64,000 nt of DNA from Isoetes taiwanensis (lineage: Eukaryota; Streptophyta; Lycopodiopsida; Isoetales; Isoetaceae), in contig JAJEKV010000344.1 in the NCBI GenBank assembly GCA_021234155.1, positions 232,793 through 296,792 on the forward strand. Direction: 5' to 3'. Each line of letters starts with the position of its first letter. The stretch's first letter is position 1. The notes under the pieces are model-generated. The model worked only from the letters and a program-made list of their open reading frames with translations. It ran no database searches and was not told where the DNA came from. A program made the position numbers and the translations under genes. Shown piece after piece: positions 5,633 to 57,864 of the stretch.

Positions 5633-6839
5633 ATGGCTGATAATTCACTTGCAATTCTCAATCCGAATGCCAATCCCAATTCTAATTCCGAGAGCATTGC
5701 TGATCAGGAAAGGAGAATTTATCTGGATTTTGAAGCCAAGAGGAAGAGAGAATCCAGAAAGAGATTGAAACTAAAGGAAAAAGAAAACATTGCACCAAAT
5801 GAGAAGAAGAGAAAACATTTTCTCAGTGATAGAAGGTTGCAAGAGCTGTCAAAAGAGCTAACTGACTCTTTTAATCACATTGTGAGGAATGTTTCAGAGG
5901 ATTTAGACAAAGGGAGAATTCTTCAAAGACTTTTGAAGAAAAATACACATTTACCATTGCAAGGAGAATTACCAGATCCCAAGAACCTGGCTGTAATGCA
6001 TACCATGATTTCCAATGTCCGAGAGACAATGCAGGCCCAAAAAATGCAAAGAAAAACTGATATTTTGCAAGCAAGAAAGAGCACTCTACAAATGGCGGGC
6101 TGTTGGGCCCGGGGATCAATCAATCTGCAATTTCAAGGGTTCTATCTATTCCACGAAAAACTGTTGCCATGGCATTTAGAAGGCAATTTTTGCAGAATCA
6201 AGCCGGCCCCGGTCAATGTTTGGAAGGAAGAGAAGAAAAGATGCCTTCACCGGTGAAGAAATAGCCACGGTGTGAAGTATTGGGATGAAAATACCAGAGT
6301 ATCACCTTATAAGAAGCATGTGAGGAAGCATTTGAATGATAAAGGTGAGAAAATTGATCATCCTATTCATCCGCTAGAGATGACACGGTATATAGTTTCG
6401 ACCATACATTTTGAATGCTTTCTTTCTTTTTTTTTGTTTAGAAAGTAACTAAATTTTTCATTGTGCGGGGTTCAACTATATCTTGGTTTCAAGAAGGAAC
6501 ATCCGGATATGAAGATGTCCCAAAGAAGCTTTTCAGAAACCGAAGCCAAGCTACATTAGAAAATTAAAAGAAAGGGGAGACATTCTGTTGCCAATACCAT
6601 TTGCATTTAGAATTTGTAAAATGGGGCCATCAATAATATGAGGACAGATCCTCATAGTGTTCACAAGGAATGTAAATGTAAGTGCAAAGTTTGTGGCAGT
6701 CGACTGTATGGCCAAGGAGAACACCATTAAATCAACTAGTGATTATTGGAGAATGGTGGTGTGCAAAAGGATGAGAGTGAAGAGTGGCATAAGCACGCGT
6801 GTGTTTGATGCAGACTTGTACAAAGTGTGGGTTAAAGAA
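5633..6839 (+). pseudogene. Transposase-like gene, N-terminal part (T1)
   Basis: An ATG at 5633 opens a 207-codon frame. Its N terminus is Asn/Ser-rich and is followed by a strongly basic stretch (about residues 27-62, rich in K, R and E) and a helical region. Past a frameshift near 6250, another frame gives YWDENTRVSPYKKHVRKHL and HPIHPLEMTR, then a likely intron (about 6390-6475). The next exon gives FKKEHPDMKMS, FQKPKPSYIRKLKE, CCQYHLHLEF, a CKCKCKVCGS cluster and the WHK zinc knot, ending at a GTAAGTATGG donor at 6840. These blocks match T2 and T3 in order. The catalytic SDG and HGKG half is absent downstream. It may be silenced or dead, but several breaks could be sequence errors. Confidence 0.6.
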
Positions 6840-8776
6840 GTAAGTATGGTTTCCTTTTGCTTGTACATTACTTTTAAGTAGTATCTAATCTAAACTGTTT
6901 TCTGTCCCGATAGTCTTGGTCATCTTTTCCTCAACAGAGTTATCTTGTCCGGGTTGTATGTGAGTGTCCCCGGGCTTGATAGGAATGCTCGCCTTCACTC
7001 AAACACAGGAAAAGATTGAGTGTTCATGCACCAGATTTATGTTCTCTCAAATTTCAAAGTCTCGCTACCTTGAAATAACTAAGTCTCAGAACTAAATCAC
7101 ATTGTGCCTTGCTTTTTATTTGAAGCACTAAGGTTTGCTTGTGTATTCTACAGAGTTGTCGAGTCTAATCCAGGTGATAGAATTCCAAAAATTATCCTAT
7201 TAGAGTGATGTGCAAAATCTTGGATTACGCGGGGACATTGACCAATTCTTGACCCGGTCGGTGTGATCATTTTCAACAAGCTCGATGCAAGACTTGAGTC
7301 GATTTGAATCCACATATTCTCAGCCCCTTTGAGTTCATGCCAAGATTAAAATCATTTGCAAAACCATTAGGTTGTGGCTGTAAGGAGTCTTAGAGTCTAG
7401 ACTGTTTTTTCTTGAATTGGGAAAGTTACTGTAACTGATACATCTGCCATTATTGTTTTTGTATTGCAGGTTGCAGTGATTATCTATAGGATGATCCAAG
7501 CGGTAATAGATGGAATTTTTTTTCCCTCCACTCTACTGCTGTTCGAAATCCCAAATCCTAGAAATGATCTGACATCTGGTTTGTCATTTCTACAATGACT
7601 TTACCAAAATAGAATTTAGTGCCTTCACAAAAACTGTTGTTGCAAATGATGCCTCCACTATTCCCAAATGTGTGACATGTAAAAACATGGTTGTGCAAAA
7701 TAGCATTTTTTTCCCCTCAAAAGGAATTTTCTTACCTTTTGATATTCAGAAATATAAATAGACAGTTATTTGCTTATAAACTTGGCCCTTCTTGAGGCTA
7801 GAACCGGTTTGATCTTGGCTAAATCTATGAGATTTCATTTCTGGCTAAAGAATACTGACATGAAGTCAAAAATCAAGAATTTGGGTGAAGGGGCTTGCTC
7901 TGGAGTTGCTTAAAACTCATCCACCTAGGACCCCAAGCTTTTCGAAGTTGTAATCAAATGCTAGTTCTCGGTGAAATCTAGGGTCGACAGTGGAAGAAAG
8001 ATCAAAAGCAGCTGAAGAACCAAACACAGACATAGATACGTACCCATTCAAAACATTCCCGCAAGGGGCAGAGGGGACGCCGCATGTGTCTACACATCTG
8101 GCATATTGGTACGCAACCCAACACCCTTTCTTTCTATATCTAGCATAATAACAGGGGTTTTTTTAAATTTTGTACACTTTTTTCCAATGGTTTTACTATG
8201 ATTTAGAGGTCGATTAGGTGGAGTGTACTAATGCGTACATCTAGAGTCGCACTAAATTTTCATCTTTTAATTCCACTTTTCTATGGTTTGATCTATGACA
8301 TCCTCTTCCATGCCATTCCAAGCGGTTAAGATCAACCCCTGTTACTTTTTAATCTAAGGGCTTGTAATTTTTTATTGTTATTTTTCCTCACATCTCGAGG
8401 AGATTACATGCACATGTCGAGCCCTAGTTTGCCCTAGTTTTTGCTTTGGTGATTTGCGGTCTGGCGTGGGTGGAAGCTCTGGTTTTTAACTCCATAATTG
8501 CCTTGGTCATAACGGGATCCCTTTTTGTGATATTTTTGTTTAGGTCTTACGTCTGCTGTGTTGATGGCCTGCGGAGCAATTCAGTCCTAAGGGGAAGTCC
8601 ACAAAAATCAGAGTGCGAGTAGCGGTTCTTACCTCGAGCCGCTAGTTTTTTCCTTCTATTACAATCGAGTAGACTCATGAGAGTTTCCTTTGTGGTCGGC
8701 CGCACCAATTGATACGGCAATTTAGCCCTCCTACGAAGTTCTTCCTTGAGTTCGCATTTTGATTTGGGGCAAGGGG
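6722..8776 (+). repeat. 2.05-kb direct duplication, copy 2
   Basis: Second copy of 1-2048, starting inside the T1 exon. Many sites read CAG or CTG here where copy 1 reads CGG or CG, and here the text CTCG often replaces copy 1 CG. It ends at repeated GGGGCAA units (8764-8786). Both copies hold a minus-strand frame with the phrase LMSLLDCNRRKKLAARGKNR (about 1690-2046 and 8547-8786); its conservation may reflect only the recent duplication. Confidence 0.9.
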
Positions 8777-8914
8777 CAAGGGGCAAGTGGTGGGAACTAC
8801 CGAATTTGTAGTGGGAGAGGGAGTTATTTTTTCAAAAATACACATGATTACTTATTCAAAATTTTGTCCTTTCGGTCTTATTGGGGCTTATTCAGCAAGC
8901 ACGCATACGATCAT

Positions 8915-9045
8915 TTTCCCTCAAAACTCTCGATCACGCTCCCTTAATCCGGCAAGACCATTTCCGATTACGAATTTTCATTTTCCCTCAAAAACTTCGA
9001 TCCACGCTCCTTAATCCGCCAAGACCATTTCTGATTTACGGCAAG
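8915..9045 (+). repeat. Two tandem units of about 70 bp
   Basis: The phrase CATTTTCCCTCAAAA followed by CGATC-CACGCTCC-TTAATCC-GC-AAGACCATTT occurs twice with small differences. This is an imperfect tandem duplication upstream of the ORF at 9315. Confidence 0.7.
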
Positions 9046-9314
9046 AAGATCGATCCGCGAAATGGTTACGATCATACCGGACTTGAATGCCACGCGGGAT
9101 ACACCTACAAAGAAAATGTAGGCAAGAAAAGCATTACGCCACACAAGAAGAAATCGAGTCTGTTTGGGGACCGAAAGTATTAGGAAAATCCACTTACGAG
9201 GTGGGTTGCATTCTAGATCCGGGATGCCCATGATTCTCTGTTGTTTAGAATATTGTTTTGTTTCATCATGCAAAAAGTTGAAGAATCGAGCAAGGAGAGG
9301 TATAATGAATATAT

Positions 9315-9662
9315 GTGCCTTTACAAAAAAATCACAAAGTGAGGAAGTGTGCACGGGGAGGCATGGCCTCCAGACTATGGTCTGTTGCGTATTACCTTCA
9401 CACAAAAGGAAAAGAAATAAACCGGTTGAGTTTCACGGCAATAGTTAAGAGAAAAGGGTGCGAAGACTCTCTCATCCCAACGAAGAGGAAGCATGCAAGC
9501 ATTTCAAATAGTGTGGAAGCGAGCAACCCGCCCGCAGATGATGCTTCCTCTCTTGAAATGACTAGGCCACAATTCAAGCCTCCTGTATGTAAGAAGAATC
9601 TCTGGGAAAATCACGAAAAAAATAGGTACTTTTCAACCCTCTTCTTCGGAACCACTATATGA
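9315..9662 (+). CDS. Unrecognised 115-aa ORF
   Basis: A non-repetitive frame; an internal ATG starts MASRLWSVAYYLHTKGKEIN. It is rich in K, R and S, with no domain I know. Sequence just upstream (9040-9230) also reads like coding sequence in other frames, for example NGYDHTGLECHAGYTYKENV, so this may be an exon of a broken larger gene. It lies directly before the TGTGGTG array and may belong to the same compound element. Function unknown. Confidence 0.3.
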   Translation: MPLQKNHKVRKCARGGMASRLWSVAYYLHTKGKEINRLSFTAIVKRKGCEDSLIPTKRKHASISNSVEASNPPADDASSLEMTRPQFKPPVCKKNLWENHEKNRYFSTLFFGTTI

Positions 9663-9849
9663 TGCAATTTAATATTGGGCAATTTATTTTCCAATAAAGG
9701 TCTAGCAAGCTTGAACAATCGGGTACACCACTTACTTCTTCATTTGGGTGTGTTGTGAGTTATGTGTAGGAAATTTGTCTTTGCTAGTTTTGAGTTGTGG
9801 TGGATAATTTCAGTTCCACGTAGTATGTAGCTCCAAATGTGTTGGGGGG

Positions 9850-10440
9850 ACAGTCATATGGTGCCAATTATATGTTAATAATGTAGTTCAGTAGCATATG
9901 TAGTGTCACATATAGTACCAAACATGGTACCTTTGAATAGTGAATTGGCTTCCATATGTTTCTATACTTAGTGTCATATGTGATGTTAGATATGGTGATA
10001 CTTGTGAATGGTGGATTGTGCGCCATATGTGGTGCCAATCGCTGGCTTTGCGCTAAATATTGCACCACGCTATCCGCCACATATGGGGTGGTGGATGCCT
10101 TGGGATGTGGTGCCTTCTTTTGCATTGTGGTGCCACATGTGGTGTCTAATGTGGCACCACTATGGATCCACATTTTGCACCACATGTGGTGTCTTTGACG
10201 CCATTTGTGGTGCCGGTAATGGATTGCCATATGTGGTGCCTTGGGTGCATTGTGGTGCCATAGGTGGTGTGTCATGTGGCACCAGTTTGGTGCCACATGC
10301 CACACCACATGTGGTGAATATGACGCCACCGGTGTTACATGCCACACCACATGTGGTGAATATGCGCCATTTGTGGTGCAAAGTTTGTCATGATGGAATT
10401 TGTGGTGTGTAAAGTGGTGCCTGTTGTGTCATGTGGTACT
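9850..10440. repeat. Degenerate TGTGGTG/CACCACA array
   Basis: Dozens of ATGTGGTGCCA-like words in a row with variable spacing. Several form the perfect palindrome CACCACATGTGGTG, for example at 10178-10191 and twice near 10300-10365. Frames across it (9868-10350 minus, 10008-10412 plus) are products of the repeat. The same words recur at 11880-12500, 13685-13745, 15845-15935 and, as CACCACA, 18055-18545. Confidence 0.85.
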
Positions 10441-10451
10441 AACCTTGGATT

Positions 10452-10777
10452 ACTTTCCAGTTGAATTCAACAGGACACTGGGAGAATGGATCAACTCTAC
10501 AAGATCAGAAGTGATTCAGTGTAAGGCAAGATCAGAAGTGATTCAGTGTAAGTCTGCTCAGCCTCTTGAGGTACTTCATAACAAAATTCCTGAAGTGCTT
10601 AGTATAATTGTATTCTCATTGACAAATTTGCGTTCTCTTTGCAGGATTTGCAATCATTGTTGCATTGAGAATTGCTGTCATGAATTTTCTACAGCATGGG
10701 TACAAGCCTTAGGTGTGAGTAGGGAGGATCAAAAGCAACTTCAAGCTACTGAGGCACTTACAGGTGAGCACTTATAG
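10452..10777 (+). CDS. Unrecognised coding-like segment with internal duplication
   Basis: Follows an acceptor-like TACTTTCCAG at 10451. The frame reads EFNRTLGEWINSTRSEVIQC and contains an in-frame 27-bp tandem duplication (RSEVIQCKA/S twice, 10501-10554). It ends with SREDQKQLQATEALT before a GGTGAGC donor-like site near 10763. A second acceptor-like site (CTCTTTGCAG) lies inside at about 10644, so true exon limits are unclear. It may be the upstream part of the spliced gene at 11163-11684. No family recognised. Confidence 0.3.
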
Positions 10778-10849
10778 GTAGCTTAGTTTACATGCTAAGG
10801 GCCTGATGTAAGGGACAGATGCCAATTAGGATTAGTGGACTTCCTAATC

Positions 10850-11160
10850 TTTCACCCTGGCTTAGTCTCTTTCGTTTGTCCTGTTTGATGTGTCTAATTT
10901 GCCCCCTAGGATGAGGTCGCTCACTCATTTTAGGTGGCTTAATTAGATACATCAATCAGGAAACTCAAAAGAGAGTAAGCCCGGCTTAATCTCCTTAGTT
11001 TTTGTTTTGCGGTATCTAATTTGCCCCTAGGATGACATCGCTCACTCGGGTGGCAAATTAGATACATCAACGTAAAACTTCGAAAAAGGGAGTAAGCCCG
11101 ACATAAAACAAGATCCTGGCTGGCTTAGTCTCTTTTGCTTCTCCTGTTTTGTGTATCTAA
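10850..11160. repeat. Tandem units with a 14-bp hairpin
   Basis: Two units of about 125 bp share GGCTTA-TCTC, TCTAATTTGCCCC-TAGGATGA, TCGCTCACTC and ATTAGATACATCAA. In the second unit GTATCTAATTTGCC (about 11011) and GGCAAATTAGATAC (about 11050) form a perfect 14-bp inverted repeat. The array occupies the probable intron before the exon at 11163. Confidence 0.7.
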
Positions 11161-11162
11161 AG

Positions 11163-11684
11163 TGCCAAGTCAAGTCAAGCTCCAGTAGGTGCTCCAACTG
11201 GACAACAATCTGCCAGATCAGCAGATGCATTAAGTCATGCTCCACACCAATCTGCCAAATCAGCAGATGCATCAGGTTATGATCTGAACAAATCGTTTGG
11301 TGAATGTAAGTCACAAGGTAACTTCCAACCTTTTGTGCCTGTCTTCTTTTTAATTTGACCCATATAGTTACCGAATCTGTTAAATTTTTGCAGCTGGAAG
11401 TGTCTCAGAGAAAAAGCAAGAGCGAGAATTCAAAAAAAAGACACCTCCAAGACATTCTGAAGCATATATGTGTCTTGCTATATGTGTCTTTGTAAAGCAT
11501 GTTGTGGCTGCAGTAATGCGAGACTTGGACATACTATCCCAATGCAAGGTGAGTTCGTAAATTTGAAGGTATTACTCATCCAATGTGAGGCCTGATATGT
11601 TTGTTGCAGGGTGTACCAATTTCTAGTTGTTGTTGGACCGCAGCGAGAATGATGATTGATGTTGTAAAGCACGATTCTTTGTAG
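11163..11684 (+). CDS. Spliced gene end, three exons, product unknown
   Basis: Exons 11163-11317, 11394-11548 and 11610-11684. Both introns are GT-AG (76 and 61 nt), and the frame stays open across both junctions (phase 1, then phase 0) to a stop at 11684. Exon 1 encodes a Ser/Ala/Gln-rich linker (AKSSQAPVGAPTGQQSARSA). Exon 2 is basic, then hydrophobic (CLAICVFVKHVVAAVMRDLD). Exon 3 ends SCCWTAARMMIDVVKHDSL. Agreement of splice sites and phase argues for real coding descent. I recognise no domain. Neighbouring TGTGGTG arrays suggest it is carried by, or belongs to, a mobile element. Confidence 0.5.
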
Positions 11685-11879
11685 TAATGAAGTTGAGGTT
11701 GGTGGATCAATAGATCTTTACTTGTAATCACATGTTTGTATTATTGTAACCAAAGAGGTTATTCTTGTAACCTATTCTTTCATTGACACTCTAATGTACA
11801 TTGTTGTATACTATTGTATACAATAGACTTTTTCGGCTGACGAGCAACACTCGGTGGAGTTCAAATCTCGGAAGAAATT

Positions 11880-12640
11880 GATGTATTCAAAGATTCATGA
11901 CAATGTGGTGTTACATGTCGTGATAGATGTGGTGATGCAAATGGTGCATGTGGTGAATCATGTGGTGCGTTTGGTGAACCATGTGGTGAATCATGTGGTG
12001 AATCATAGGTGGCATCTTTGGAGCTTACGTGGCATGTTGGAGCCTAGGTGGCATGTTTGAGCCACCTTGGCATATTTGAGCCTAGGTGGCATATTTGAGC
12101 CACCTTGGCATGCTTGAGCCTTTACATGACCTTTGTTACATGTTTGACTTTCATTGACCAACATGTTTGGTGATGCAAATGGTGCATGTGGTGAATCATG
12201 TGATTCATTTGGTGAATCATGTGGTGAATCATAGGTGGCATGTTGGAGCTTCGTGGCATGTTGGAGCCTAGGTGGCATGTTTGAGCCACCTTGGCATGTT
12301 GGAGCCTAGGTGGCATATTTGAGCCACCTTGGCATGCTTTTGAGCCTTTACATGACCTTTGTTACATGTTTGACTTCCATTGACCAACATGTTTGGTGAT
12401 GCAAATGGTGCATGTGGTGGATCATGTGGTGCATTTGGTGAATCATGTGGTGAATCATGCGGTGAATCATAGGTGGCATGTTGGGGCTTACGTGGCATGT
12501 TGGAGCCTAGGTGGCATGTTTGAGCCACCTTGGCATGTTGGAGCCTAGGTGGCATGCTTTTTCGGTCTATGTGGCATGCTTGACCCTTTCTGCGTGGCAT
12601 GTTGGAGCCTAGGTGGCATGCATGCAAACGTCCCTTTCCT
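11880..12640. repeat. Three tandem 225-240-bp higher-order repeats
   Basis: Units start near 11931, 12169 and 12395. Each has a GTGGTGAATCATG-rich half and a half made of GGTGGCATGTTGGAGCCTAG / GAGCCACCTTGGCATG words, followed by TTTACATGACCTTTGTTACATG. It is a short-period array nested in a longer-period one. The minus-strand frames of 91, 64 and 119 codons here only translate the repeat. Confidence 0.9.
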
Positions 12641-12649
12641 CTTACGCCT

Positions 12650-13210
12650 CATTCCCAAAATCGTATGGATGCCTACAATTTGCATCCCTTTTATTCCCAA
12701 AAATTACGCCTTTGCGGCTTCATTAAAAGTCCCCATCGTCTATTCGCCATCTCCTTCACTCCTTCCCCATTCCGTCCATCTCCTTCACTTCCGCCATGGC
12801 CAAGTTCAAGACTACACTCGGCGGGGAACACTATCCCGGCCATTGTGCCTGCTCCTTCGCAGCCAGCACGGTCAGAATCCGTGGCTTCCTGCGGAGGATC
12901 CGTGTCTTCCTCCACCAGAGGAGGCCGCCCGATTACAGTGGTGGCCAAGTTCACTCCACCGGAGGTCGGGGCTCATCATGGATCATCAAGTTAGCCGGCC
13001 GTTGCGGGTGCTCGGTGGGTGCATGCAGGTTATGATGGCGAGGCGACTCCTCGAAATGAAGATGTAATACTGCGAGGGCGACCTCCATATAGAGCTCAAG
13101 ATGGCCCCGCGATTAGTTTAGATTACCGTATTGTAATCCTTGGTTTCAATTTTTTTTTGGCAATAGTCCTTGTGACTATTCTTTGTAAAGGCTTTTCATT
13201 AATGATGTAA
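12650..13210 (+). CDS. GC-rich gene-start-like region, product unknown
   Basis: Composition turns GC-rich directly after the repeat array. An ATG at 12796 in a good plant context (CGCCATGG) opens 79 codons (MAKFKTTLGGEHYPG...). The overlapping frames 12599-12994 (S/P/R-rich) and 13019-13210 (RGRPPYRAQDGPAISLDYRI then a hydrophobic segment) also look coding-like. The most likely reading is one gene start broken by indels. Terminator-like T-rich sequence follows at 13145-13260. Strand is plus by start context and composition. No family recognised. Confidence 0.3.
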
Positions 13211-13533
13211 CTTGTTTTGCAATAGTTCTTGTTTTGCAATAGAACTTGTTTTGCTTTTAATTGTTCTCGAGTTTCCAACGTTCTTTTCGGTTAGCTGAAC
13301 TTTTGTCATTAATTATAAAATGCAAACAAGGAATTTGAAGGTGCGTAATCTATGATCTGCACACTAACAAAATATGGTAACCCATTTCGGCAAATAGGAA
13401 AATATGAGATGGGTGGTTCGGGTTCAAAAGAAATAGAGTTCAAAAGAAAAGAAAAAGAAAAACACGTAATTCCCTGAAGCAAAAGTTAGTGGCCTTGCAA
13501 GAATCTTTGCACAAAGCAAGAGCTCAATGAATT

Positions 13534-13728
13534 TTGGCCTCATATCAATTCGGGGACCTAATTTGGGATCCATATATTGTTGTCACCAAAATCGGTCAAG
13601 ATACTATCGGGGAATCCACGAGAGCCATTCCATTTTTCGGACAGGGTCAAAATGGTCAATGCCCCCGTGATGATGGCTTAAATCGTGGTGAAAGCGTGGT
13701 GAAAAAATGTGGTGAAAAACTGTGGTGA
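13534..13728 (+). CDS. Short ORF ending in a GTGGTGAAA array
   Basis: Sixty-four codons, starting in DNA that reads LVALQESLHKARAQ just upstream and then ASYQFGDLIWDPYIVVTKIG. The last 20 or so codons come from the repeat GTGGTGAAA (13685-13745). It is probably the decayed end of a larger frame. Nothing recognisable. Confidence 0.2.
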   Translation: MASYQFGDLIWDPYIVVTKIGQDTIGESTRAIPFFGQGQNGQCPRDDGLNRGESVVKKCGEKLW

Positions 13729-13869
13729 AGCTGTGGTGATGCAAACGTTGTTTTTATATTTCAAAGGGAGAAAAATACATATGGAAATCTACCACACCGG
13801 TTAGAATAGTTCATACTTCTTATGAAATGAAGTATGCGAAAAATCGGGGAAAAACTATAACCCCGAGCT

Positions 13870-14560
13870 TCTAGTATTATCAAAATGCATTAGAGATATA
13901 ATAATAGGCTGTTTTGAAGAGGTTAATGATGACATACATTTCTTGGGCCTCAATCGGATCTGCATTGTGAGATCGTAACTCTTCTTCTTCCAAGTATGTC
14001 CAAGATTTCATCAAGTTTTTCTGCTGAATAGTTGGTGAAATCCAAAGAACACTAAAACATGAGCTTCTGCGTTTACGCTTCCCACTTATGATACTGATTC
14101 ACAAAGTATTGTCTCGGTTGTTGTGTCTCCATGCGGTGGCCTGTTGAGCACTTTTTTAATGGTGAAGCATGGATCATTTCTGCTTTAGTTCGATGAACAT
14201 ATCCTCTTCCTCAAGCATGGGAGAGCTGCGAACTCATCCACCGAGAATCATACGCCACCCCAGAACCACCTAAATTTTGCACCAGCTCTGTTCGTCTCGG
14301 CCGCATCGGTAAAAACAACATCATTAGTAATAAGAAAGGCAACCGCCTATCACTACCTTGGCTTCTAATTCTTTAAGCCCATCGGGAATTAACCTATGTT
14401 TTAAGCCTAGAATACCTCGAATTCATGGGTCCTCCGCTCCTCTAATATCCGCCTCGTTTCTGGTTTATTTGCTCAAAGATAGGTCTTACCGGATCATTTT
14501 GCATTTGAAGCTGGCGAAATTGTTTGTGCCCGTGTTCTCCTTACGTTTTTCTTCCGCCAT
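13870..14560 (-). pseudogene. Broken minus-strand gene, N-terminal part, unknown product
   Basis: An ATG at 14560 gives a Lys/Glu-rich start (MAEEKRKENTGTNNFASFKC) that ends at a GTAAGA donor near 14489. Downstream on the same strand, other frames give coding-like segments: RGILGLKHRLIPDGLKELEA (about 14350) and NYSAEKLDEILDILGRRR (about 14000). Stops and frame changes interrupt them. It lies between two other minus-strand broken genes (15690-14876 and T2) and could be part of the same mobile element. It has no recognised domain. Confidence 0.35.
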
Positions 14561-14875
14561 AGTTTGGATCCGGGATAAACCAATATGCATGCAAAACTAG
14601 ATTTAGGGTTTCCCTCCAATCTTTCTGCCGCGACCCGACTTTTGAATGATTGAACTTGCATTTGATGTGACAGATTTCGAGTGGTGGGTTTCATCATGTG
14701 TTTTCTCTGTCCCATTCCGTTTCATCCTTAATGTAATTTTTACGTGGTGTCACTTTCACCCCTGTCAATTAAACAATAAAAGATTGAAGAGTGAAGATTT
14801 ATATTAAACATATAAAATGATTACATAAGGTTACATTTCAGATTATATACACTTGTTTTCATTCACGTGGGTCTA

Positions 14876-15690
14876 TCAAAAGAGATCCGGGTCCGGCTCC
14901 TCCTCGTCATCTTCTATGATCACCGGGGATTGGCCGGGGAATTCGACTTCCCGGTCTATTTGCTCCCATTCGGAGGGAAAGCAAAAAAACCATAATGGTG
15001 GAGTGTTACCAAGCAGAATAGCGACTTCTCCATGTCCATCCTGCAAAGGCCTTGTGATGATAGTACATATCCCCGAAGTGAAGGAATTGGTCCTCTCAGT
15101 AAACAACCTATCATAGCAAAAGAGGAACATTTTAAGCGTAAAGGCTTGGTAGCCATTAAGCGAGAAAAAGGTCTCAACCTTTGCGGATCCTGGTCAATAG
15201 TATGAGGAGCGGGCCAAAGATCTTTGGTGTGTAAAATTTCGATGGAGAGGCAGTAAGTTGAGAGGTCAGGGGCGTGGTGGCTGTACAATTCAACCTCCCC
15301 GTGAGAGTTTTCAGCATTTCGTGGTCATATTCTCATCCGTGAATAGAGTAATTTACGTATCGAGCATGTCCATCCATTCTCGCATGGCTGAAAATCGGGA
15401 CAGCACGCCTAGGTATTATGGGCTCTTCTTCTCTGGTCACATTGTCCCATTCCGGCACTCCATCGTTTTGCAGCATCCAAGAGGTGAAGTTGGCCATGTC
15501 TGCTGTAGTAGCTTCTTTAAAAGTTTGTCGCTCTTAAATGTACTTCCCACCAGTAAACCGTAAACCGAACTGCTTCCCAAGGACCTCTTTCTTTGAACCG
15601 TATGCGCTCCTCGAGCTAACGTAATAAAGCGTAAACTTCGGTCGGGAGCAAGAAGAATGGCATCTCGGGCCTTTTGGGTTGCCCGAGGTC
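14876..15690 (-). pseudogene. Broken minus-strand gene with acidic C terminus
   Basis: Reading along the minus strand across frame changes gives PEMPFFLLPTEVYALL, RFKERGPWEAVRFTVYWWEV, ANFTSWMLQNDGVPEWDNVT, IFSHARMDGHARYVNYSIHG, ELYSHHAPDLSTYCLSIEIL and a final intact 84-codon frame. That frame ends in the acidic tail IIEDDEEEPDPDLF at the stop at 14876. Composition is strongly protein-like, with many W, Y and F. I do not recognise the family. Same strand and closeness to T2 make it a candidate second gene of the T2 element. Breaks may be base-calling errors or decay. Confidence 0.45.
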
Positions 15691-15844
15691 ATTAATTTTC
15701 GCCATCCCATAATGATTTTCGGGTACGGCTGTCAGCCAAAGGATGATGAGAGGAATTGATGGGACCGAGAGAATTTAAGGAAAAGGAAAGTATTTCAGTA
15801 GAAAAACTTGAAGAAGGATCTATCGTATTAGGGAGAAGAGACGT

Positions 15845-15935
15845 AAAGTGAAACACGTGGTGAAACATGTAGTGAAACACATGTGTCACCACATGTGGTG
15901 AAACACATGTGGTGAAACATGTGGTGAACCTGGGG
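15845..15935. repeat. GTGGTGAAACA / CACATGTGGTG short array
   Basis: About seven units of GTGGTGAAACA(TGT/CAT). The core ACACATGTG-TCACCACATGTGGTG is palindromic. It separates the acidic-tail gene from T2 and uses the same word as the larger arrays. Confidence 0.8.
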
Positions 15936-16164
15936 CATGTTACATCAGGGACATCAAAATACAATTACATATTACATCAGAAGCAAACATATTACATTGA
16001 AACAAGGGACATCAAAATACAATTGAGCATGGAATTGAGTTTTTATATTATTCCCAAACAAGGCAAGACACAACAACATATTCAAAATTTCGAATCATTT
16101 CTAACTTTCGTAAGAATGTGTTCAGCTATTCTTCATCGACATGCTATCTTCATCGAGATAAAAC

Positions 16165-19130
16165 CTAGGGCAAGTTTTCTAGAATCTTTTCCTCATCGGC
16201 TTTGGTCAGCCTCACGTAAACAGATTCGAGCACCTTTCTTGATCTCGGCTTTGCATGGGAACTCGAATAGCACAAATTTGAGTAGAGAATACAAGTGATT
16301 TTGGCTGCGTTTGTCAACAACTCATACATCACCTTTGACCGAGGCTTCTTTCTATAGTAAATGCCCTCCACAACGGTTTCACCTCTCATAAACAAGTTTC
16401 CGTTCTGCTTGAAGTCATTTTCAACTTCAAATTTTGGCTTGGTGCATAGCAACATCCAAAATCTGTAATCCTCCTTTCCCTTTAGGTGCGAAAGAAGCGC
16501 AAATCTTCTTCTTCTCTAAGTGCTTCGCAAGTACATTTGCCAAGGTTGAGTATAGTGGCACGGTAGACTTGCGGGTCTCTTCCACATCCGCATGAACATT
16601 GGAGGATGGTTCAACGACTACAAGGTCCCATTCATCTACATACAATTAGTTCTCACACATGTCCCATTTTCCATCCAAACAATTGCTTTGCCAAAACATG
16701 ATAGCTTTTACGGTATGTAGGCGTGTTGGATTTCATCTTGAATCCATGGATTTGAATGAATTTGCCTTTGGTTTCGGAATTGTCTCTCGCACCCCAAGCC
16801 TTTTTCCTGTTGATATCCTCGGGTTTTATTTCCCGAAGTATCTCAGAACTTTTCTTCCATTTTCAGTCCTTTCGGATGTACCACATTGAAATTGTTTCTC
16901 TCGCAATTTTCACCACATCATGGGCATTATCTAGTTTAATGTCGGGATGTTTAATTTTGTAGACCTCATTATCCATCTTTTCAATTCTGCGCCTTCCCAT
17001 CATGTTCACCTTTTCCATGGTTTGATCCAAAGAAGTTCCACATCATGTTGACCTCCGTATCCAACCGTACCTTCCAACAAAATAAAATGATCCGGCTGCT
17101 TTGAATTGTGATGCAAGACCATCCGAAAATACATAGTCTTTGTTTGGGGACATTGCCCTTTTCGCTTTAAGTACTCAAAATGTTTCATAAAACAATGTTG
17201 AACAAAAAGTGTGTCATGTTCCCTATCATCCCACACATAGTAGTGTGTTTCCTTCTCAATGGTGTCTGTTCGTGGATCAACACGGTAGGTTATTTGAACA
17301 AATATAGTTATCGGTTGTTGACCCGGCATGGGTGAACTTCATTACGCTCCTTAAAAGTATAATTCTCTCGAAGTCAACCACGGATAGGTAAGCATCTCGG
17401 GCAAGTTATCAAGGAGTTCTTTGTACCGGCCCGCCTCGCCACTTATATCACGAAGTTGTGTAAAGGAAAATTTGGAAGCTTCTCCAACATTTTGTTCACC
17501 AATGGAAGACTTGCGTTTCATTGTGTTGGTGAGCGAGCTTAGACTTCTTGCTGCCATCTCACGAATCTGCTTTTTTTCATAGTCTAGGTATTCCCACTTC
17601 ACCATGCCACTATCACTAGATTGTTCATGTGGGCAGATATAGGGAACTTCTTAATCCCACACTCTTTACACTCACCCGCAATGCATTCCCTCTTATGGTA
17701 AGGTTGGAAGCTAGTTTTCTCACATAAAATTCACGCCCTGAGACTTCTTGTGCTACTTATTTTGTATTCAGGGCATGCATTCACCATATATCATCGACCG
17801 GGAAGTCAAAGCCGACAGAATACCGCACTTTTTGGGTGCTTAGTTCTCATACTATTGAAGCCATCTATTAGCATCTGCATTCTAACATGGTATATACAAG
17901 CAAAGAACTATTGAAGTCCTTTAATTTTACAACAAACCATGGTTTCGACTTTTCAAACATCCTCTTGTTTGATCATAACACTAGGATGTTCGGTCTTGAA
18001 TTTCCCCGAACAATTGCAACTGCAAGGAAGATAACAAGGTGATCAGCATATTTATTGCACACTACATTTTCCACCACACTAGGCACCACATAGCATATAT
18101 TACGCAGACATTCATCTTACACCTCCTTATTCCACACTAGGCACCACAACGCATATATTACATAATTTATTGTACACCATATTTTTCACCACACTAGGCA
18201 CCACATAGCATATATTACAGACATTCATCTTACACCTCGTTATTCACCACACTAGGCACCACATAGAATATATTACAACATTCATTTTACACCATATTTT
18301 TTTCACCACACTAGGCACCACACTAGGCACCACACCGGCACCACACTAGGCACCACACTAGGCACCACACCATGTTATTCACCACACTAGGGACCACATA
18401 GCATATATTACATAATTTATTTTACACCATTTTATTCACCACACTAGGCACCACATAGCATATATTACAGCATGTATTTTACACCATGTTATTCACCAAA
18501 TTAGGCACCACAAAGCATTTATTTCACACCACGTGCATCACCACAAGAACCACATATCACAAGCAATCACTAACCACATACCACATACCACATTAACAAT
18601 AAAAAAATGTGGTGAAGATGAAGAAATGAAATAATAACGTGATTCTTCCAGATAGTGAGTGGCATGATCCTCTCTTACATTTCGTTCCAATCTCTTCCTG
18701 AACTTAACATCCTTTGCATTTGGAGAGACCCTCATTTGTTTTTAGGTCCAAAATTGTGCACAAGTTCTATGACGATTTGGGAATTGCATCCGCTTCTTCT
18801 AACTCTTTTGTACAAAACCCATTTCCCCTTTGCAATCTATCTCTTCCCTCTTCAATTTTGCTTTGGTAAGATTCCTAGGATGAACACCCCTGAGTTTACC
18901 AAAACCCCGAAAGCACCGGCTGGGATTAGCACTTTTCGGTATTAATGCTTCCTCTTACGGCCATAGCAAGGCAACTACTCTTGGTCGCTAAAGCGCTCAT
19001 TGCTGTTAGACTTCTTCACAAGTTGAATGGAAGCCCCGAGGTTGCTGACCACAATGTCTTGGCTTGCAAATCTTCCAGCTCTTCACCAAGTATTTGTCCA
19101 TTGTGTCATCCTGCCGGATAATCTAGTAAA
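16165..19130 (-). pseudogene. Transposase-like gene, near full length but broken (T2)
   Basis: Read on the minus strand through several frame changes, the blocks are in order: RGVHPRNLTKAKLKREEID (about 18850), RVSPNAKDVKFRKRLERN (18735-18600), an intron filled with CACCACA repeats ending at a TTCCTTGCAG acceptor (18021), FEKSKPWFVVKLKDFNS, the zinc knot ECIAGECKECGIKKF, a 84-codon frame to KELLDNLPEMLTYP, ETHYYVWDD, HDTLFVQHCFMKHFEYLKRK, FSDGLASQFKAAGSFYFV, MMWNFFGSNHGKGEHDG, YVDEWDLVVVEPSSNV, VEGIYYRKKPRS and ADEEKILENLP at the stop near 16165. Candidate acidic catalytic residues are the Asp of SDG (17121-17123) and of HDG (16999-17001). I infer an RNase-H-like transposase. The upstream limit is uncertain. 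Confidence 0.65.
18055..18545. repeat. CACCACACTAGGCACCACA minisatellite in the T2 intron
   Basis: Eight or more units of about 55-60 bp: CACCACACTAGGCACCACA then TAGCATATATTACA and a TTCATCTTACACC-like tail. Inside it a short-period stretch (18305-18370) repeats only CTAGGCACCACA. It sits between the TRVSPN block and the FEKSKPW block of T2, so it occupies an intron of that gene. Confidence 0.85.
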
Positions 19131-19449
19131 ACCTCTTAAGTCGATTTAATTAAAGTGGGACTCATTCCATTCCATTTTTTTTTTTCGGAACCCTGTTAAT
19201 TTACACAAAAGAAGCACCTCGAACAAAACCGACCATAATTGGAATTTTTGTCTATTAGTGTGTATCCAAGCTTTTCTTCCAGTTTTCTTGGATAGCGGTC
19301 GAGAACAAGAACAATGCAGCATAAACATGCATTAGACCTATCAAGTTCTAATTGAAAAAGATTCTTAGTTGAACATTTTGGCTCTATTTTCTTAGGTGGG
19401 TAGGCGATAGATCACAAATTCCAACAAAAATTATGCAAATCATCTACTT

Positions 19450-19745
19450 AATCACCCAAAAATACTAGTCTTGAGATACCTTATATTTATAAATGGGCTC
19501 ATTACAATATATATTACAATGGGTGAAGAGACCATAGTGGTCATTATGGGCACAATCATTACACCCTCTTCACACATGAACCACCTAGTGCAAAGGGGGC
19601 GTGAAGCTCTCTCTCCTAGTCCGCGGAACAACTTACAGGGACGATAGAAATTTGTATGAGGAGTTCCTTTATGGGCCACGTGCTTGAATGTCCAAGCCCG
19701 ATGTCACCACCCTCTTTCGGCACCTTTCTTTAATGAACTGATCTT
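19450..19745 (-). other. LTR-like promoter segment (tentative)
   Basis: On the minus strand this has a TATAAATATAAGG box near 19485-19495, preceded by a GC-rich block and ATATATTGTAATG words, like a plant Ty1/copia LTR promoter. I could not define TG..CA ends, a second LTR or a target duplication. It could equally be an unrelated promoter or chance sequence. Confidence 0.2.
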
Positions 19746-19904
19746 TTCATTGCTCCCAAGCATGTACTATTTGGTCGAGATAAAATTTTTGCAAGAAACA
19801 AAATCAAATTAGTCAAGTGATGCTACATGCAAAAAAAAATAAAATAAAACACAGTTCTTAGGCCCATTTTTGGAAAATACAGGCATGAAAAAGGCATTTC
19901 AGGA

Positions 19905-20300
19905 GGGAAAACGCAGTTTTAGGGGTTGAAGGCCTTTCTCGACTCGCGAAGTCGAGAAAAGGCAGCTCAAAGCTTAAAAATGCAAGTTATAGGGGTCGAA
20001 AGCCTTTCTCGACTCGCGAGTCGAAAGGCGCTCAAAGCGAAAAATACAAGTTTTAGGGTTGAGGGGAACTTCGATGAGTCGAACGCAGTTTTATGGGTGA
20101 AGGCCTTTCGACTTCGCTGAGTCGAGAAAGGCAACTCAAAGCCGGCGCCCATAAACCCCGCGTTTTTGAGTCGCCTTTCGACTTCAGCGAAGTCGAGAAA
20201 GGCCTTCCCGACCCATAAAAGTTTCGGCTTTGAGTCGCCTTTCTCGACTTCATGAGTCGAGAAAGGCCTTCCCGACCCATAAACTTTTTTTCGAGCTTTG
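19905..20300. repeat. Palindromic satellite around CTTTCTCGAC-GTCGAGAAAG
   Basis: Six or seven units of about 60-70 bp. Each has a near-perfect palindrome of the type CCTTTCTCGACTTC-GAAGTCGAGAAAGG. The flanking phrase is CTCAAAGC...AAGTTTTAGGGGTCGAAGG in the left half. The right half carries its reverse complement (CCTTCCCGACCCATAAA...GCTTTGAGTCG). The array is therefore itself a large inverted repeat with its centre near 20150. Confidence 0.85.
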
Positions 20301-20379
20301 GAGTCGCCTCGGAGTAAAAAAAAGGGCAATTTCAAAGCTCAGAGTCCAAGAAGGTCGAAAATGAATCCTTCAAATATCC

Positions 20380-20880
20380 TATGTATTTTCTATGAAAAAA
20401 TACCCTTCCTATAAATTTCCTACGTATTTTCCATAAAAAATAGACCCTCCCCATGTATTATTTAATGGACACATATCCAATGGACCCTCCCCCTTTCTAA
20501 TGGACCATACCATATAGCTATATGAAGAGGGGACCATTGGGCTCATATTTAGCTATGTAAAGAGTAATGCCTAATGCACATGTAAATAGCAACATATGCA
20601 CCTATAATGCACATTATAACCTACGAGAGCCTATTAGACCTATGCATTAAATCTATTAATAAGCATTAGACATATATATTAATATGTACTTGTTTCCATT
20701 TTGTGTCTTGAACCTTCAAAATGGGTTAAACAAGGTGTAAATTATATCATGATCACACGCAAAATTAAATTTTTACCTTAGAATAAGAATATATGCCTAG
20801 AAAACGTGCACCATAGCAACATAATGTTTAACGTGTAAACATAGTAGCACACACATGAAAAGAGGAAATTGGGGATTACG
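20380..20880. other. AT-rich stretch without recognised gene
   Basis: Contains GGACC-TCCCC phrases and TATGTATTTTC words repeated two or three times (20390-20520) and strings of ATGCAC/ATTAGACC words. No ORF or element end is visible. Confidence 0.4.
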
Positions 20881-20883
20881 TCT

Positions 20884-21030
20884 TATTTTACCCTTTTTTT
20901 CTAATACCACCTTTTTTTCCCGCCCATGCTTGAATTTTAAAATCATTTATATTACACTCAATGTATTATTTTACCCCTTTTTTTCTAATACCCCGCCTTT
21001 TTTTCCCGCCCATGGTTGAATTTTAAACTT
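20884..21030. repeat. Two tandem units of about 75 bp
   Basis: TATTTTACCC-TTTTTTTCTAATACC then CCTTTTTTTCCCGCCCATG-TTGAATTTTAAA occurs at 20884-20942 and 20962-21027. This is a simple tandem duplication. Confidence 0.75.
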
Positions 21031-21620
21031 TGGTACATACCTTTGAGACAGAAGTTCCTTTTGTACCATTTGAAAGAACCTCCCAACGCCATAGCTCCCC
21101 AGCGCCATAGCGGTTTGCCGCCATAGCAGAATTTCGGATCAAATGGGCGTACAAAGGCAATCGGGAATGCACGGGATACGCTTTCGATTTCAAGCGGATT
21201 CTTGAGCATTGTGGCTACGGCTTCTTTTAACTAATTTACGGCTTTCTTTGCGGCGCCAAGGCGACCTTATACCTCTTTTGATGGTTTTGATGCTTTCGAA
21301 GCTCCGGCGAGCGGCGGTTTTCTTGAGCTTCTAGGTTTTGAAGTCACGGAGGGCACCACGAGAACTCCGGTAGAGTATTTGGCGGTATTCGGCAGTATTT
21401 CAAATCAAGCGATGGCCCCGGCGAGCTTCCAGCTCGGACCCTACGGCTCACATTTTTCTTTTTGAAAGGCACAAATCTTTTACATTATGCCTAGCTTTAC
21501 AAGCCTTGGCGTGTCAGATTAATGAATTGAAAGCTTTACTACTCCTTCCTTGAGACCAATCTTGGCTCCTAATTTGATGTTTAATCCTTCAAGCTGCGAG
21601 AGATTTTGACAAGCTCGGAG
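21031..21620. other. Gene-like GC composition, no recognised product
   Basis: Composition rises, and minus-strand frames such as 21209-20985 (MLKNPLEIESVSRAFPIAFV start) look coding-like but end quickly and match nothing I know. The phrase GC-GCCATAGC recurs three times at 21085-21125. It may be the 3' part of a chimeric transcript starting in the CP12 fragment. Confidence 0.25.
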
Positions 21621-21916
21621 TTACCTTTGAGTTTCGCCTTTGAAATCTTTCCACTCTGAGGAAGCATCTCCATTTGCCGCGGCTATGGCCATAACTTCCA
21701 AGCTTCGCCCATGGCTTTCAGGAGCCTCAATCAACGCCCTAACCCTGACCTTGGTTTCAAACTGACCTTGATTTCTAATCTTCAATCTAACCTTGGTTTT
21801 CGCTATCCGGATCAACACGCACTTAAGATTTGAAGCGGAACTTGCGTTTGTGGATTGAAGCTTTGCTTCCGACAACCAGCGTTTTGTGGATTTGAAGCGA
21901 ACTTCGCGTTTGTGGA
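21621..21916 (-). other. Chimeric tail joined to the CP12 fragment
   Basis: After the CP12 match the same frame continues 35 codons (STNAKFASNPQNAGCRKQSF...) to a stop at 21812. An overlapping frame runs to 21621 (VRALIEAPESHGRSLEVMAI, ending KDFKGETQR). Short direct repeats of GCGTTTGTGGATTGAAG type mark 21845-21920, right at the junction, which fits rearrangement there. No domain recognised. Confidence 0.35.
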
Positions 21917-22189: not shown

Positions 22190-22364
22190 GGCCGCCCCTC
22201 TCCGATCTTCAGATAAAATAATTGTCGGGGTGTTGCGATGGGTGATCACGGGTCCTTCTATCCTACAAATGAGTTTGGTTGTGACCATCTATGCCCCTTT
22301 AGGTACCTTGCACACATTTAATCTCACACTTAATGGGCTGGTTCACGGAGGATTAGAGGTTATT

Positions 22365-22452
22365 CCAATTCTCGACTCACTAATTCGAAGAAGAGGAGAA
22401 TGGTTGGATTTATGTTTTCCAATTCTCGACTCACTAGTCGAGAAGAGGAGAA
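22365..22452. repeat. Two 43-bp direct repeats with CTCGACTCACTAGTCGAG
   Basis: TTCCAATTCTCGACTCACTA then TCGA-GAAGAGGAGAATGG occurs twice. The second copy contains the palindrome CTCGACTCACTAGTCGAG. It echoes the CTCGAC..GTCGAG core of the satellite at 19905-20300. Confidence 0.75.
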
Positions 22453-51125: not shown

Positions 51126-51129
51126 GCAA

Positions 51130-53060: not shown

Positions 53061-54639
53061 GCTTTTTAGTTTTACAGAGATAATTTGCAAACAACATGCA
53101 ACACATCTTCAGAAACCATAAATTCTAAATAAATAGCAAGATAGAAAGAAGACTAAACAACTTAGGAACAGCCAAATTATAATACAAGAAATAAGAACTA
53201 GGGTTAAAACATGCAATAGCGTCTCAATTAGTTTGTCCCCCGTCCCCCCCAAAATAGTTGAAAAAGTAGGTCGTCCCAACTAACTTCTTTGCCATGAGAA
53301 CATTTTGAAAAAAATTCTGCAAGAACCTCGGGCCAAAGATTCTATCCCCGCCGGTGGTATCGTGAGTAGGTCCGAAGCTTGTACCGTGAGGATGATCCCA
53401 TGAATCAAGACTTCTTGATGCGCCATGCCAAAATCGTGAACCTAATAAGTAAGTGAAAAACTTCTCAAATTTTTTTACAAAATTTCTTGCAAAGCAATGA
53501 AATGGAAGCTCTTTGTTAACTAATTGGAGCAATGTAAGATTTTCGCCGCTTTCTTATTGCTTAGTTGGATAAACTAGATAAACTTAGAGCATCTTTTTTT
53601 TTTCAGATTGAGACCACCTTGTTGAAGCCATCCCACAAGGCCAAAGATATCAGTAAGCATCAATCCTTTCTCTTCATCTTCATAGTTAAACATGGGAGAT
53701 GAGGATGCAAGCAAGTCAAAGGGGAGAAAGAAGAGAACAGCAGAGCAAGAGACCTTAAAAAAGAGAAGACAGAGGAAGCGTAGAAATGAGGAAAAACATG
53801 CTATTATGCAAGAATGTTCCAATGCTTGGGTCGAGCAACACTAAAAAAAAGCATAGAGCCTTGGCTAATATTGTCTAAATCATTTATGAAGAATTGAATT
53901 GGACACCTAAACGAAGAAAGAAATTTTGAGTGACTTCATAAAGGAAAAAAGAAATCAAAGAATTTCTTAGTGTTAATTCAAGAATATGGGAGTTAAGAAT
54001 CATTTGATTGGCAATATTAGAAAAAGCATTTAATCAATAAAAGCTTCTACAAGCATAGATTCCATGGCTGCAAAGAAAAATGTACTTGCAATGGCTATTG
54101 GCAAGGATTGCACAGGTCAAATTGTTAGTAAAGAAGTTTGGGAAAAGTTTTGGGAGTCCATCCGAGAAATATTAAAATGGCAAGGAATAGACGTGAACAA
54201 ATAGATATTGATAAAGGTGGATGGGTCTTTTACAAAAGCATCCGTAAGGTTTGATTCAATTGGAGATGATGTTATTGGTGATTCGTGAGTTTTGGGATGC
54301 AAATACAAGGGTCTGCTAATGCGAAGGGCGTAGGAGATATAAAAGATTGGCAAAGAATATTAAATAAGAACATGCCACTCACTATTTGGAGGGACACTGG
54401 GTAATTCCCCTTCTCATTCTTTGAAGGAACTAAAATTATGGTTGGTAAGGTATTGTTAGTTGTGAATTGAGTTAGTGCTAGACAATGGTTACTGATCCGG
54501 GGTTAGTTAAAGTTACAGGAAACAATAAAGTTAGTTCTAGTCTGCGATTAGGTGTTATAGCGAGGGTCAGATTAGTTAAAGTTGCGGTCATGGCTAGTAG
54601 TCGAGGTTACAGCTTATAGTTCTGATTAGTTAAAGTTGT

Positions 54640-54760
54640 AGGTTACTGATCAGTTAGTTCAAGTTCCAGTTACAAAGGGGGTTCCAGTTGCATTCTGGGG
54701 TTCCAGTTGCAGGTTCAAGTTGCAGGTTGGGGTTCCAGTGTTGTGATTCTGCGATTTTTG
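54640..54760. repeat. GGTTCCAGTTGCA short tandem repeats
   Basis: Five or six variants of GGGGTTCCAGTTGCAGGTT-like words, continuing more loosely up and downstream (54430-54860). They lie in the T3 interval between its N-terminal and central blocks, probably an intron or insertion. Confidence 0.7.
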
Positions 54761-54936
54761 ATTCTGATTTTGATTTGTTACAAGGGTGGTCCGATCACAG
54801 TTATAGTTAGAGGTGGAAGTTGTAGGTGATAGATGTAGAGACAATAACAGTTATAAGTAGATGCTAATAGTTTTAGTTGCTGTATCAATTCAGTCTTAGT
54901 CTTCAAACTTGAGCATCTTTGTCCACTAAGTTATAG

Positions 54937-55754
54937 CTTTAATTCAGGGGTATTAAAGAGTGGCTAAAATTCGCCAAATGGCTATTTTTTAGACTTTTAG
55001 TCAAATTTTGTGGCTAAAGTTAATAAAGATCATTTTTTGAAGAACTAAATAATTTAGCCATTCCAAAAGGGAAAAAAATTTGGACACTTAGAGTTTAGCC
55101 AGGTTTGGCTACATCATGGCATACTAAATTGCCTTCTTTGAAGCTGATTATACGCACCCTAATCAATTCAAATAGCCATGTTGAATCCATTCAGGGAACT
55201 CTTTAATTTAAGAAGTAAGTCATTTAGCTATATCAATCATGCTTTGATGGATATTGAATTTGAATCTATAAGTCGTTTAGGTTAAAAGATTGTTTTAAAG
55301 AATGTTCATGTGAGTGAGCATTTTAAGCTCTAAGTAATAGTGTTTTATTCTTGCAAACAAGTTAGCCATTTAGATGCATTTGACCCCGACATAAATACGT
55401 GTGTTCCCTCAAATGGTATTATTTGCTCCTTATGAATTGTACTTTGAATCTTTGTTATTGTTTTGTAATGGAAGCATATTGAATCGCTTGTCATTCATGT
55501 GATAAGGAGTGCCTTTAATTTGAAGTTAAATAGTTACACTTTTAGCCACCAACCAAGAAAAAATTAAGCCAATATAAGAATTTCAGATCATATAAATTTT
55601 ACATTTTAGCCAAGTGGGAAGATAACTAAAGGGTTTTATTTTATCAAATTTCGCCTAATAAAAATTTTATGAACTTTTATTTTCAAAGGTTTAGCCAACC
55701 TTAATTTGAATAGAAAAACATTTAGGACCCTTAAAATTTACCCCGGCTTTAATT
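54937..55754. mobile_element. Non-autonomous hAT element with 8-bp target duplication
   Basis: CTTTAATT occurs at 54937-54944 and 55747-55754, flanking 802 bp that begins CAGGGGTATTAAAG and whose other end, reverse-complemented, begins CCGGGGTAAATTTTAAG. An 8-bp duplication with CA/CC-GGGGTA termini fits the hAT superfamily. The interior is AT-rich with many TAGCCA/TGGCTA words and has no transposase. It sits inside T3 and so is younger than it. Confidence 0.65.
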
Positions 55755-57864
55755 AGGTTTTTCATTTGTGAGGTCTTGTTGTATCCAACATATGGTTATG
55801 TAAGCTCACTACTCTTATTGTTGTTGTAGTCTGTTTCTTAAGTTCAAAGAGCAATATCCAGAGGTGCGATCCGCCAAAGAGCTTTTGAGAAATTAAAGCC
55901 ATGGTATGTCATGAAGTTGAAGCAATTCAACTCTTGTTGTTGCATACATCATGTGAGGCTACAAATGCTTTTGGATGGTTTTAATAAATTGCTGAGGAAC
56001 CAGCATGTGAATGAACTGCAATTGTGCATGTGAAGTATGTGGAGCAAGAGAAGAAGAAGTTTGTTTCGGCCAAGACAAAAAGTATAAGACAACTTCTGAG
56101 TTGTGGCAGTCTATTCTTTGCCCAAGAGAGGAAAATCAAGAATTTCAAAAAAGATTGCATATCAAAGGCTTTGTAGCACTTGTGGTATCTCTCAGGTTGT
56201 TTTATATGCCCACTAGAGTTATCAAATGAAGGATCTATTAGTTGGGGAGTTGGGATTATGAGGAAGGTGGTACAAGGATAAGAAAGGAAACCCAAAGAAG
56301 GTTCTAAAGCTTTTATGGAGAGAGAACCACTTAACTTTAATTCATATAAATTGTTGAGAGGTTGGATAAATTTCCTTTGCATAGTTTGAGGGCACAAGTG
56401 GCGAGGCAAAGCAAGTTCAAGGAGTTGTTGGAAAATCTTCCTCAGGTATTCTTGTATCGTGAAGAGTGGACTTTTTGCCGAATTTTTCTATCCAGGCAGA
56501 GAACCAAGTGCAATCTCGATATTGGACTAGTATACGATTACCATCTTGGTGCATATTCGTACTTTGGACCCTATGTCGTGGATGTAGTCAAAAGACACTC
56601 ATTATTATATCTGATGATACAAAGCACGATACACTGTTTTTGTTCAGCATGCATTTATGATGCATTATGAGTTTATGAAACAACAAGGTATAGATCCGTG
56701 ATAAGACCGGGTCTTTCGGGATGGAGCAAACATCCGCGGTTCAAAGCGGCAAGACCCTTCTACTTTGTTTGGAAGGTATGCGATTTGCCACACAAAATTG
56801 AGATGATGTGGAATTTTTTTGGCTCAAACCATGGGAAGGGAGAGCATGATGGCAAAGCCGAGTAATTAAACGGTGGCTTAGGGGAATTGATGAAGAGAGT
56901 ACAGTCCATAAAAATTGAAAATGCAAAACATATAGTTAAAGCAGCTGAGGGATGGTTTTTCGTCTAGTGCTCCATCTTCTAGTTTGAAAAAAAACCATGA
57001 GAAGATGGTTTGGGAAGTGGTGGGGTGAAATGAACAACCTTTGGGCATTAGACACGTGGAGGACACAAGGAACATTCATTACGGGTTCATGCATTCAATT
57101 TAGAATGCCCCACGCGAATTGCATGTAAGACGTTTGTCTTGCTTTTGTGCAAATTGCTTTGATGCGTAATGGGAAAAATGCATGAACAAAGAATATGTAG
57201 ACGATTGGGAACTTGTGATTATTCAACCAAGCAATGTTCTACGTGATGAATATGGAGGAACATTAAATCTCAAAGAACAAGATTCTTGAAGCCATCTACT
57301 GTTCTAAAAGATAGCATAGGAGTAGGCGACAATTTTGCTGTTGCTGCTCCAAAATATAATGAAGAGGGAGCACTATTTTGGTTGGTGTGTTGTACAAAGA
57401 CAGCGTATGTTGTTAAGGAAGACTTTGAGGTAAATGGGCAAATATTTTATGCAGGAGAGGAGCTTCTTGAAGGTATTTATTATAAAAAGGCACCAAGATC
57501 ACGTTCAAAAGCTTATATCTATTGTTCGGGACGAGCCAAAAGCCATAGTCTACACAAGTCAAGTTTGTGCAATTAAATTGGTCATGCCACAGGCAAAACA
57601 TCGATTGAAGGGAAACCAGGTTGTATACACACTTAGTGAAGCTGATAGTGAGAAGATTTTAGACAATCTCCCCGATGTTCTATCTGATGATGAAGACTAG
57701 GTATCTGACTCTATCAGATTTGTCTTTTTTTTGGCTATGTACCATATTTCTGATTTATCAGATTTATCAATTAATGCGGTTATCAATAAAGTCTTTGTCA
57801 ATTGCATGTTATTTTGGAAGAGTAAACTGGAATTTTAAATGCATGGTTCTGTTTAGGAGTTTAG

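Follow-up and report, generated by a model that had tools for sequence, protein, structure and literature searches.

What kind of element carries the transposase-like gene of which four broken copies lie within 64,000 nucleotides of the Isoetes taiwanensis genome (GenBank assembly GCA_021234155.1, contig JAJEKV010000344.1, positions 232,793 to 296,792 of the forward strand; this whole stretch is called the window), and what else does that element encode? A preliminary description, made from the letters of the window, had taken the copies for a mobile, transposase-like family recognizable by a shared order of peptide blocks. They are here read as degraded remains of large DNA transposons of the cut-and-paste kind, whose terminal inverted repeats start GGGT; most likely they form a plant lineage within the Sola superfamily. 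The result is several Sola-like families that carry a distinctive second gene, a variant among known transposons.

Copies in the Window and Their Families

The copies, T0 to T3, and their parts lie as follows.

1..2040, + strand: T0, family E copy, truncated at the left edge of the window; 93.7% identical to the complete element E33 over 1-740 and 92.7% to T1 over 1-2040
1-115, + strand: transposase remnant within T0
5301..8776, + strand: T1, family E copy with a perfect 24-bp 5' terminal repeat (5301-5324), without 3' end
8787..23473, - strand: T2, family A element whose 5' terminal repeat lies at 23452-23473 and which has lost the 3' one near 8787
16165..19130, - strand: transposase remnant of T2, frameshifted
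9159..9458, + strand (opposite to the transposase): remnant of the N-terminal block of the second gene in T2 (tblastn E 1.2e-15, query the family A block from A11)
19138..22898, unstranded: foreign 3,761-bp element that is inserted into T2 and bounded by perfect 23-bp inverted repeats (AAGTCGATTTAATTAAAGTGGGA); its duplication is AAGA (4 bp)
53201..64000, + strand: T3, family D element with its 5' terminal repeat at 53201-53222 (one mismatch), interrupted at about 58338-63410 and passing the right edge
55869..57682, + strand: transposase remnant of T3 from FEKLKPW to SEKILDNLP, frameshifted

The preliminary description had counted four copies, three of them independent; all four are present, but T0 and T1 agree at 92.7% over 2,093 aligned bases and are one family, so that the four copies stand for three families, namely E (T0, T1), A (T2) and D (T3). 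Two further families, B and C, were read elsewhere in the genome, which was searched over 1,658,258,908 bases in 1,110 contigs. The shared blocks are found where they had been placed: GVHPRN at 18888-18871(-) and 54153-54170(+), HGKGEHDG at 17019-16996(-) and 56830-56853(+), SDGLASQFK at 17126-17100(-), and the C-x4-C-x2-CG block at 79-108, 6802-6831 and 17685-17656(-). The set is indeed transposase-like, but it forms part of longer elements with sharp ends, whose 5' ends inside the window are at 5301(+), 23473(-) and 53201(+). The 5' terminus of T2 matches the 22-bp family A end perfectly, and T2 aligns with the complete element A11 in a 7.1-kb block at 91% identity and in further blocks; T3 aligns with locus L031 at 91.7% over 53200-54948 and at 93.2% over 55746-58129, with further pieces at 58117-58338 and 63410-64000. 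With the protein of an open family D relative elsewhere in the genome (L027) as the tblastn query, T3 is matched at E 2e-111, T2 at 6e-48 and T0 at 1e-5, the best of 20 shuffled control proteins reaching E 0.35; T1 alone is weak in this search (E 0.12); at the DNA level, 39 other places are 92-96% identical to it.

Element Ends, Target-Site Duplications, and Empty Sites

Mapping of fixed ends across the genome identified sharp 5' ends, by comparison of copies, and inverted 3' ends, those of three elements being read from longer stretches; ends without inverted repeats, considered when the first 10-kb stretches contained no inverted 3' end, were dropped once the longer stretches showed them. 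The inverted repeats of the four complete elements begin GGGT, and each element is flanked by an exact 4-bp duplication: A11 (10,662 bp) by AGAG, B15 (11,361 bp) by ATAA, C16 (10,041 bp) by GCAT and E33 (7,601 bp) by ATTG. In E33 the two repeats are identical for at least 24 bp. Ten further family A elements, picked for matching 22-bp ends from pairs lying 10-11 kb from each other within the first 100 of 783 end places, have repeats that agree over 26 bp in all ten (the first 22 bp by choice) and an exact 4-bp duplication in nine, the tenth agreeing in three of four bases; the duplication is thus exact in 13 of the 14 elements with both ends read.

Empty sites are present for two of the elements. 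The joined flanks of E33 are matched at up to 98%, and 38 of the 41 matches cross the junction; a zf-RVT domain (E 5.8e-14) continues across this junction, which places E33 within a copy of a reverse-transcriptase gene. For A11, ten matches cover 265 of 265 bases of the joined flanks at 97-99%.

The elements are numerous. With up to one mismatch allowed, the 22-bp family A end was found 400 times in forward and 383 times in reverse orientation, against 0 times in either for its reversed control; a search with the HGKG block gave at least 150 matches (150 scored of 3,350 rough candidates), and a 322-residue query at least 129 (from 124 scored among 10,892 rough candidates), with identities of 46-100% and open frames that reach 674 residues. 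The catalytic stretch of T3 recurs at 21 other places at 82-93%, with further matches at 76-80%. Further genomic copies, the lack of which would have spoken against a mobile family, are therefore plentiful, and inverted repeats, duplications and empty sites bear out the mobility that had been proposed. Long open frames, matching ends and intact duplications together suggest that movement was fairly recent. Short family A derivatives did not appear among the first 100 of the 783 matches, where none of 28 facing end pairs was less than 2 kb apart and 12 were 9-12 kb apart.

The Transposase Gene

The first gene lies inside the terminal repeats and appears to be a multi-exon transposase gene, its exons being joined by predicted splicing; the protein contains Cys/His blocks, a putative D-D-D core and a C-terminal part that is conserved. 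In an alignment of five chosen copies, one per family, the invariant columns include D39 in VVDFAEN, D124 in SDG, and E163 and D165 in HGKGEHDG, the three Asp being spaced by 85 (D39-D124) and 41 (D124-D165) residues; the two Asp singled out in the preliminary description, those of SDG and HGKGEHDG, are borne out, and the first, in VVDFAEN, had been missed. The alignment thereby offers candidate catalytic residues that can be directly tested. Between families A to D, nonsynonymous differences (pN) amount to 0.11-0.23 and synonymous differences (pS) to 0.80-0.99 over 143-144 codons in six pairs: the transposase evolved under strong constraint. Together with its place inside the repeats and the three invariant Asp, this upholds the initial view of the gene as transposase-like.

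No Pfam or NCBIfam model matched 614 residues of the L027 frame, and the best hit in PHROGs had E 0.15; a search of the literature with the motif strings gave no match on transposons by title. A transposase without a Pfam, NCBIfam or PDB match although related loci are numerous is of practical concern, as such genes are easily annotated as host genes. A crude secondary-structure estimate (a Chou-Fasman average of our own, which is a weak predictor) places strands before D39, at QITILVHITY, at HYYI and before D124, and helices in part of the HDTLFVQH-MMHYEFMK stretch and from D165 on, an order of strands and helices that would suit the RNase-H-like core proposed earlier.

The Second Gene

Gene 2 lies on the strand opposite to the transposase and encodes, from the 3' end of the element inward, an N-terminal block, a RING-like finger, a NIF/FCP1-like phosphatase domain and an Ulp1 protease domain, at least two of these parts being found in each family. 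The Ulp1 domain was identified in three joined exon pieces of B15 (PF02902, E 1.6e-14, 54.7 bits against a cut-off of 20.7), with tblastn matches in A10, A12, B13, C16 and C18; its His-Trp pair is intact in C18 and reads His-Arg in C16. The NIF domain was identified in two joined pieces of C18 (PF03031, E 1.9e-14, 54.1 bits against a cut-off of 21.8), the Pfam match being absent with the B15 piece alone, and is matched in A10, B13, B15, C16 and E33 and, over 29 residues, in D31. The RING-like part is present in B15, C18, D31 and E33, and the N-terminal block in A11, B15, C16, D31 and T2 (9159-9458(+)).

Orientation and spacing, though not a rate, can be read from a sample of 50 transposase places and 44 of 115 Ulp1 matches chosen partly for shared contigs: 20 of the 50 transposases have an Ulp1 match within 20 kb, the other 30 having no chosen one, and in 19 of the 20 cases the Ulp1 match is downstream and on the other strand, 15 of these being at a distance of 2.6-4.2 kb. 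Between families, gene 2 has pN/pS of 0.25-0.62, and is thus constrained, less than gene 1. The order of its parts is kept wherever they are found, which suggests that gene 2 is of use to the element rather than captured by accident. Searches of openly licensed PubMed Central text on Sola with Ulp1, on Ulp1 with FCP1, NIF or RING in DNA transposons, and on Sola in lycophytes found no description of such an arrangement.

Classification

Sola elements are DNA transposons with a DDD transposase, 4-bp duplications and inverted repeats of 11-1124 bp; according to the same account they mostly measure 2-9 kb, some exceeding 15 kb, and are found in a moss and not common in flowering plants (PMC10741241). 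They have also been reported in ferns (PMC6786969, PMC6890710). The present elements share the 4-bp duplication, and their sizes (7.6-11.4 kb) and repeats (26 bp long in family A and 24 bp or more in E33) are within the described range; the three Asp invariant in the five chosen copies are candidates for the DDD residues of the transposase. As far as the general features of Sola were open to testing, they fit, and membership of the superfamily is probable. Similar in layout are the chimeric Sola2-Fanzor elements of Dictyostelium and Polysphondylium, which likewise combine 4-bp duplications, short inverted repeats and a transposase with a second, captured gene, but in which that gene is Fanzor1 (TnpB-like) and the duplications are AT-rich (PMC3627910). 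A RING-NIF-Ulp1 gene such as the one found here is not described for Sola in the parts of these sources that deal with the superfamily.

The preliminary description had stated that such proteins are found in many eukaryotes; outside this genome, their occurrence was traced only to one broken copy. A scan of prokaryotic sequences gave a single match, a broken transposase copy on a 5.4-kb contig (L030) of a bin named uncultured Trichormus, no other contig of which matched; this contig is probably DNA of the fern Azolla in the bin of its symbiont. Azolla is stated to hold substantially more SOLA elements than Salvinia (PMC6786969), and the contig and this abundance together form a circumstantial link to Sola. 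No relative was found among viral contigs with two peptide patterns and one WNFF-x3-HGKG pattern, scans that see only sequences fitting the pattern. Independently of the classification, the presence of L030 in a public prokaryotic bin suggests that the bin contains plant DNA.

Several results weigh against the assignment to Sola, and against parts of the account given above. The likeness to Sola is drawn from described features, and the AT-rich AWWT duplication of Dictyostelium Sola2 (PMC3627910) fits only one of the 13 exact duplications here (AAAT). No PDB relative of the transposase was found (the best hits, E 0.021 for a single sequence and 0.19 for the profile, were both a mannanase), its RNase-H fold being putative, and single copies deviate from the catalytic motif, L012 reading SNG and L015 being shifted at SDG. 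The repeats of B15 are imperfect, with several mismatches, those of C16 have one mismatch, and the 3' end of family D was not found. In gene 2, the finger reaches at best 24 bits against a Pfam cut-off of 31 and is for this reason called RING-like only; Ulp1 was not found in A11, D31 and E33, NIF in A11 and A12, RING in A10, A11 and A12, and the N-terminal block in E33.

Some of these points would also suit a separate superfamily of DNA transposons having the 4-bp duplication and a D-D-D transposase in common with Sola, a reading that is rather unlikely. The transposase without relatives in Pfam, NCBIfam or PDB, the duplications without the AWWT preference of Sola2, and a likeness to Sola drawn from described features all speak for it; against it stand the fit of all the general Sola features that could be tested and the sole outside relative, on a contig attributed to Azolla, the fern with substantially more SOLA elements than Salvinia (PMC6786969). 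A plant lineage of Sola is thus preferred.

It is very improbable that the elements are divergent members of another known superfamily of plant transposons carrying Ulp1, such as CACTA or Mutator. CACTA elements have CACTA ends and a 3-bp duplication and were rejected for the GGGT ends and 4-bp duplication found here; no Pfam transposase model matched either. Tc1/mariner was discarded as well, since it requires a TA duplication and the 4 bp found here are of varied sequence. The resemblance lies in the Ulp1-like regions of grapevine CACTA and Mutator elements, which in Mutator occur in either orientation to the transposase and hence sometimes opposite to it, as here; the transposase, the ends and the duplication length are different, and no NIF or RING part is described in the relevant part of the source (PMC2528002). 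For Mutator, the duplication of 7-12 bp (PMC10741241) against 4 bp here led to its rejection.

A repeated host gene family with pseudogenes, which a multi-exon gene without a Pfam transposase model might bring to mind, is hardly conceivable in view of the inverted repeats and 4-bp duplications, and is refuted for families A and E by their empty sites; nor did any known host enzyme match.

Proposed Mechanism

In the Sola-like elements as understood here, the transposase would bind the terminal repeats and cut at the ends through its putative RNase-H-like active site, and would join the ends to target DNA in which the two strands are cut 4 bases apart; this stagger would give rise to the 4-bp duplication. 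The product of gene 2 probably targets host proteins of chromatin or transcription by way of SUMO, ubiquitin or phosphate marks. In a bolder and less probable reading, the plant lineage has at most a distant relation to known Sola elements, and this second gene, fusing a RING-like finger, a NIF/FCP1-like phosphatase and an Ulp1 SUMO protease, was already part of it before families A to E diverged; its product would edit host SUMO, ubiquitin and phosphate marks and so help the element to escape silencing or to control its own transcription. Should gene 2 work as proposed, transposition would be tied, in a seedless plant, to the control of chromatin or transcription by SUMO and phosphate.

Other Features of the Window

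T1 (family E, +) and T2 (family A, -) meet at about 8776-8787, the 3' end being lost in both, as if a deletion had fused two convergent elements. Minisatellite arrays lie in the family A element at 18050-18523 and 11903-12624, and similar arrays align in other family A copies; one of them looks to be placed in an intron of the transposase gene. An additional family A open frame, on the transposase strand and between both genes, is located at 14876-15324 of the window and at L011:7562-8224; it has 221 residues in A11 and no significant Pfam match. Pentatricopeptide-repeat fragments occur at 27624-27932, below the Pfam cut-off, and at 47237-47671, above it; a fragment of this kind accords with plant DNA. 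Within the insertion that interrupts T3, a long pyrimidine-rich stretch (61610-63242) is open in three frames.

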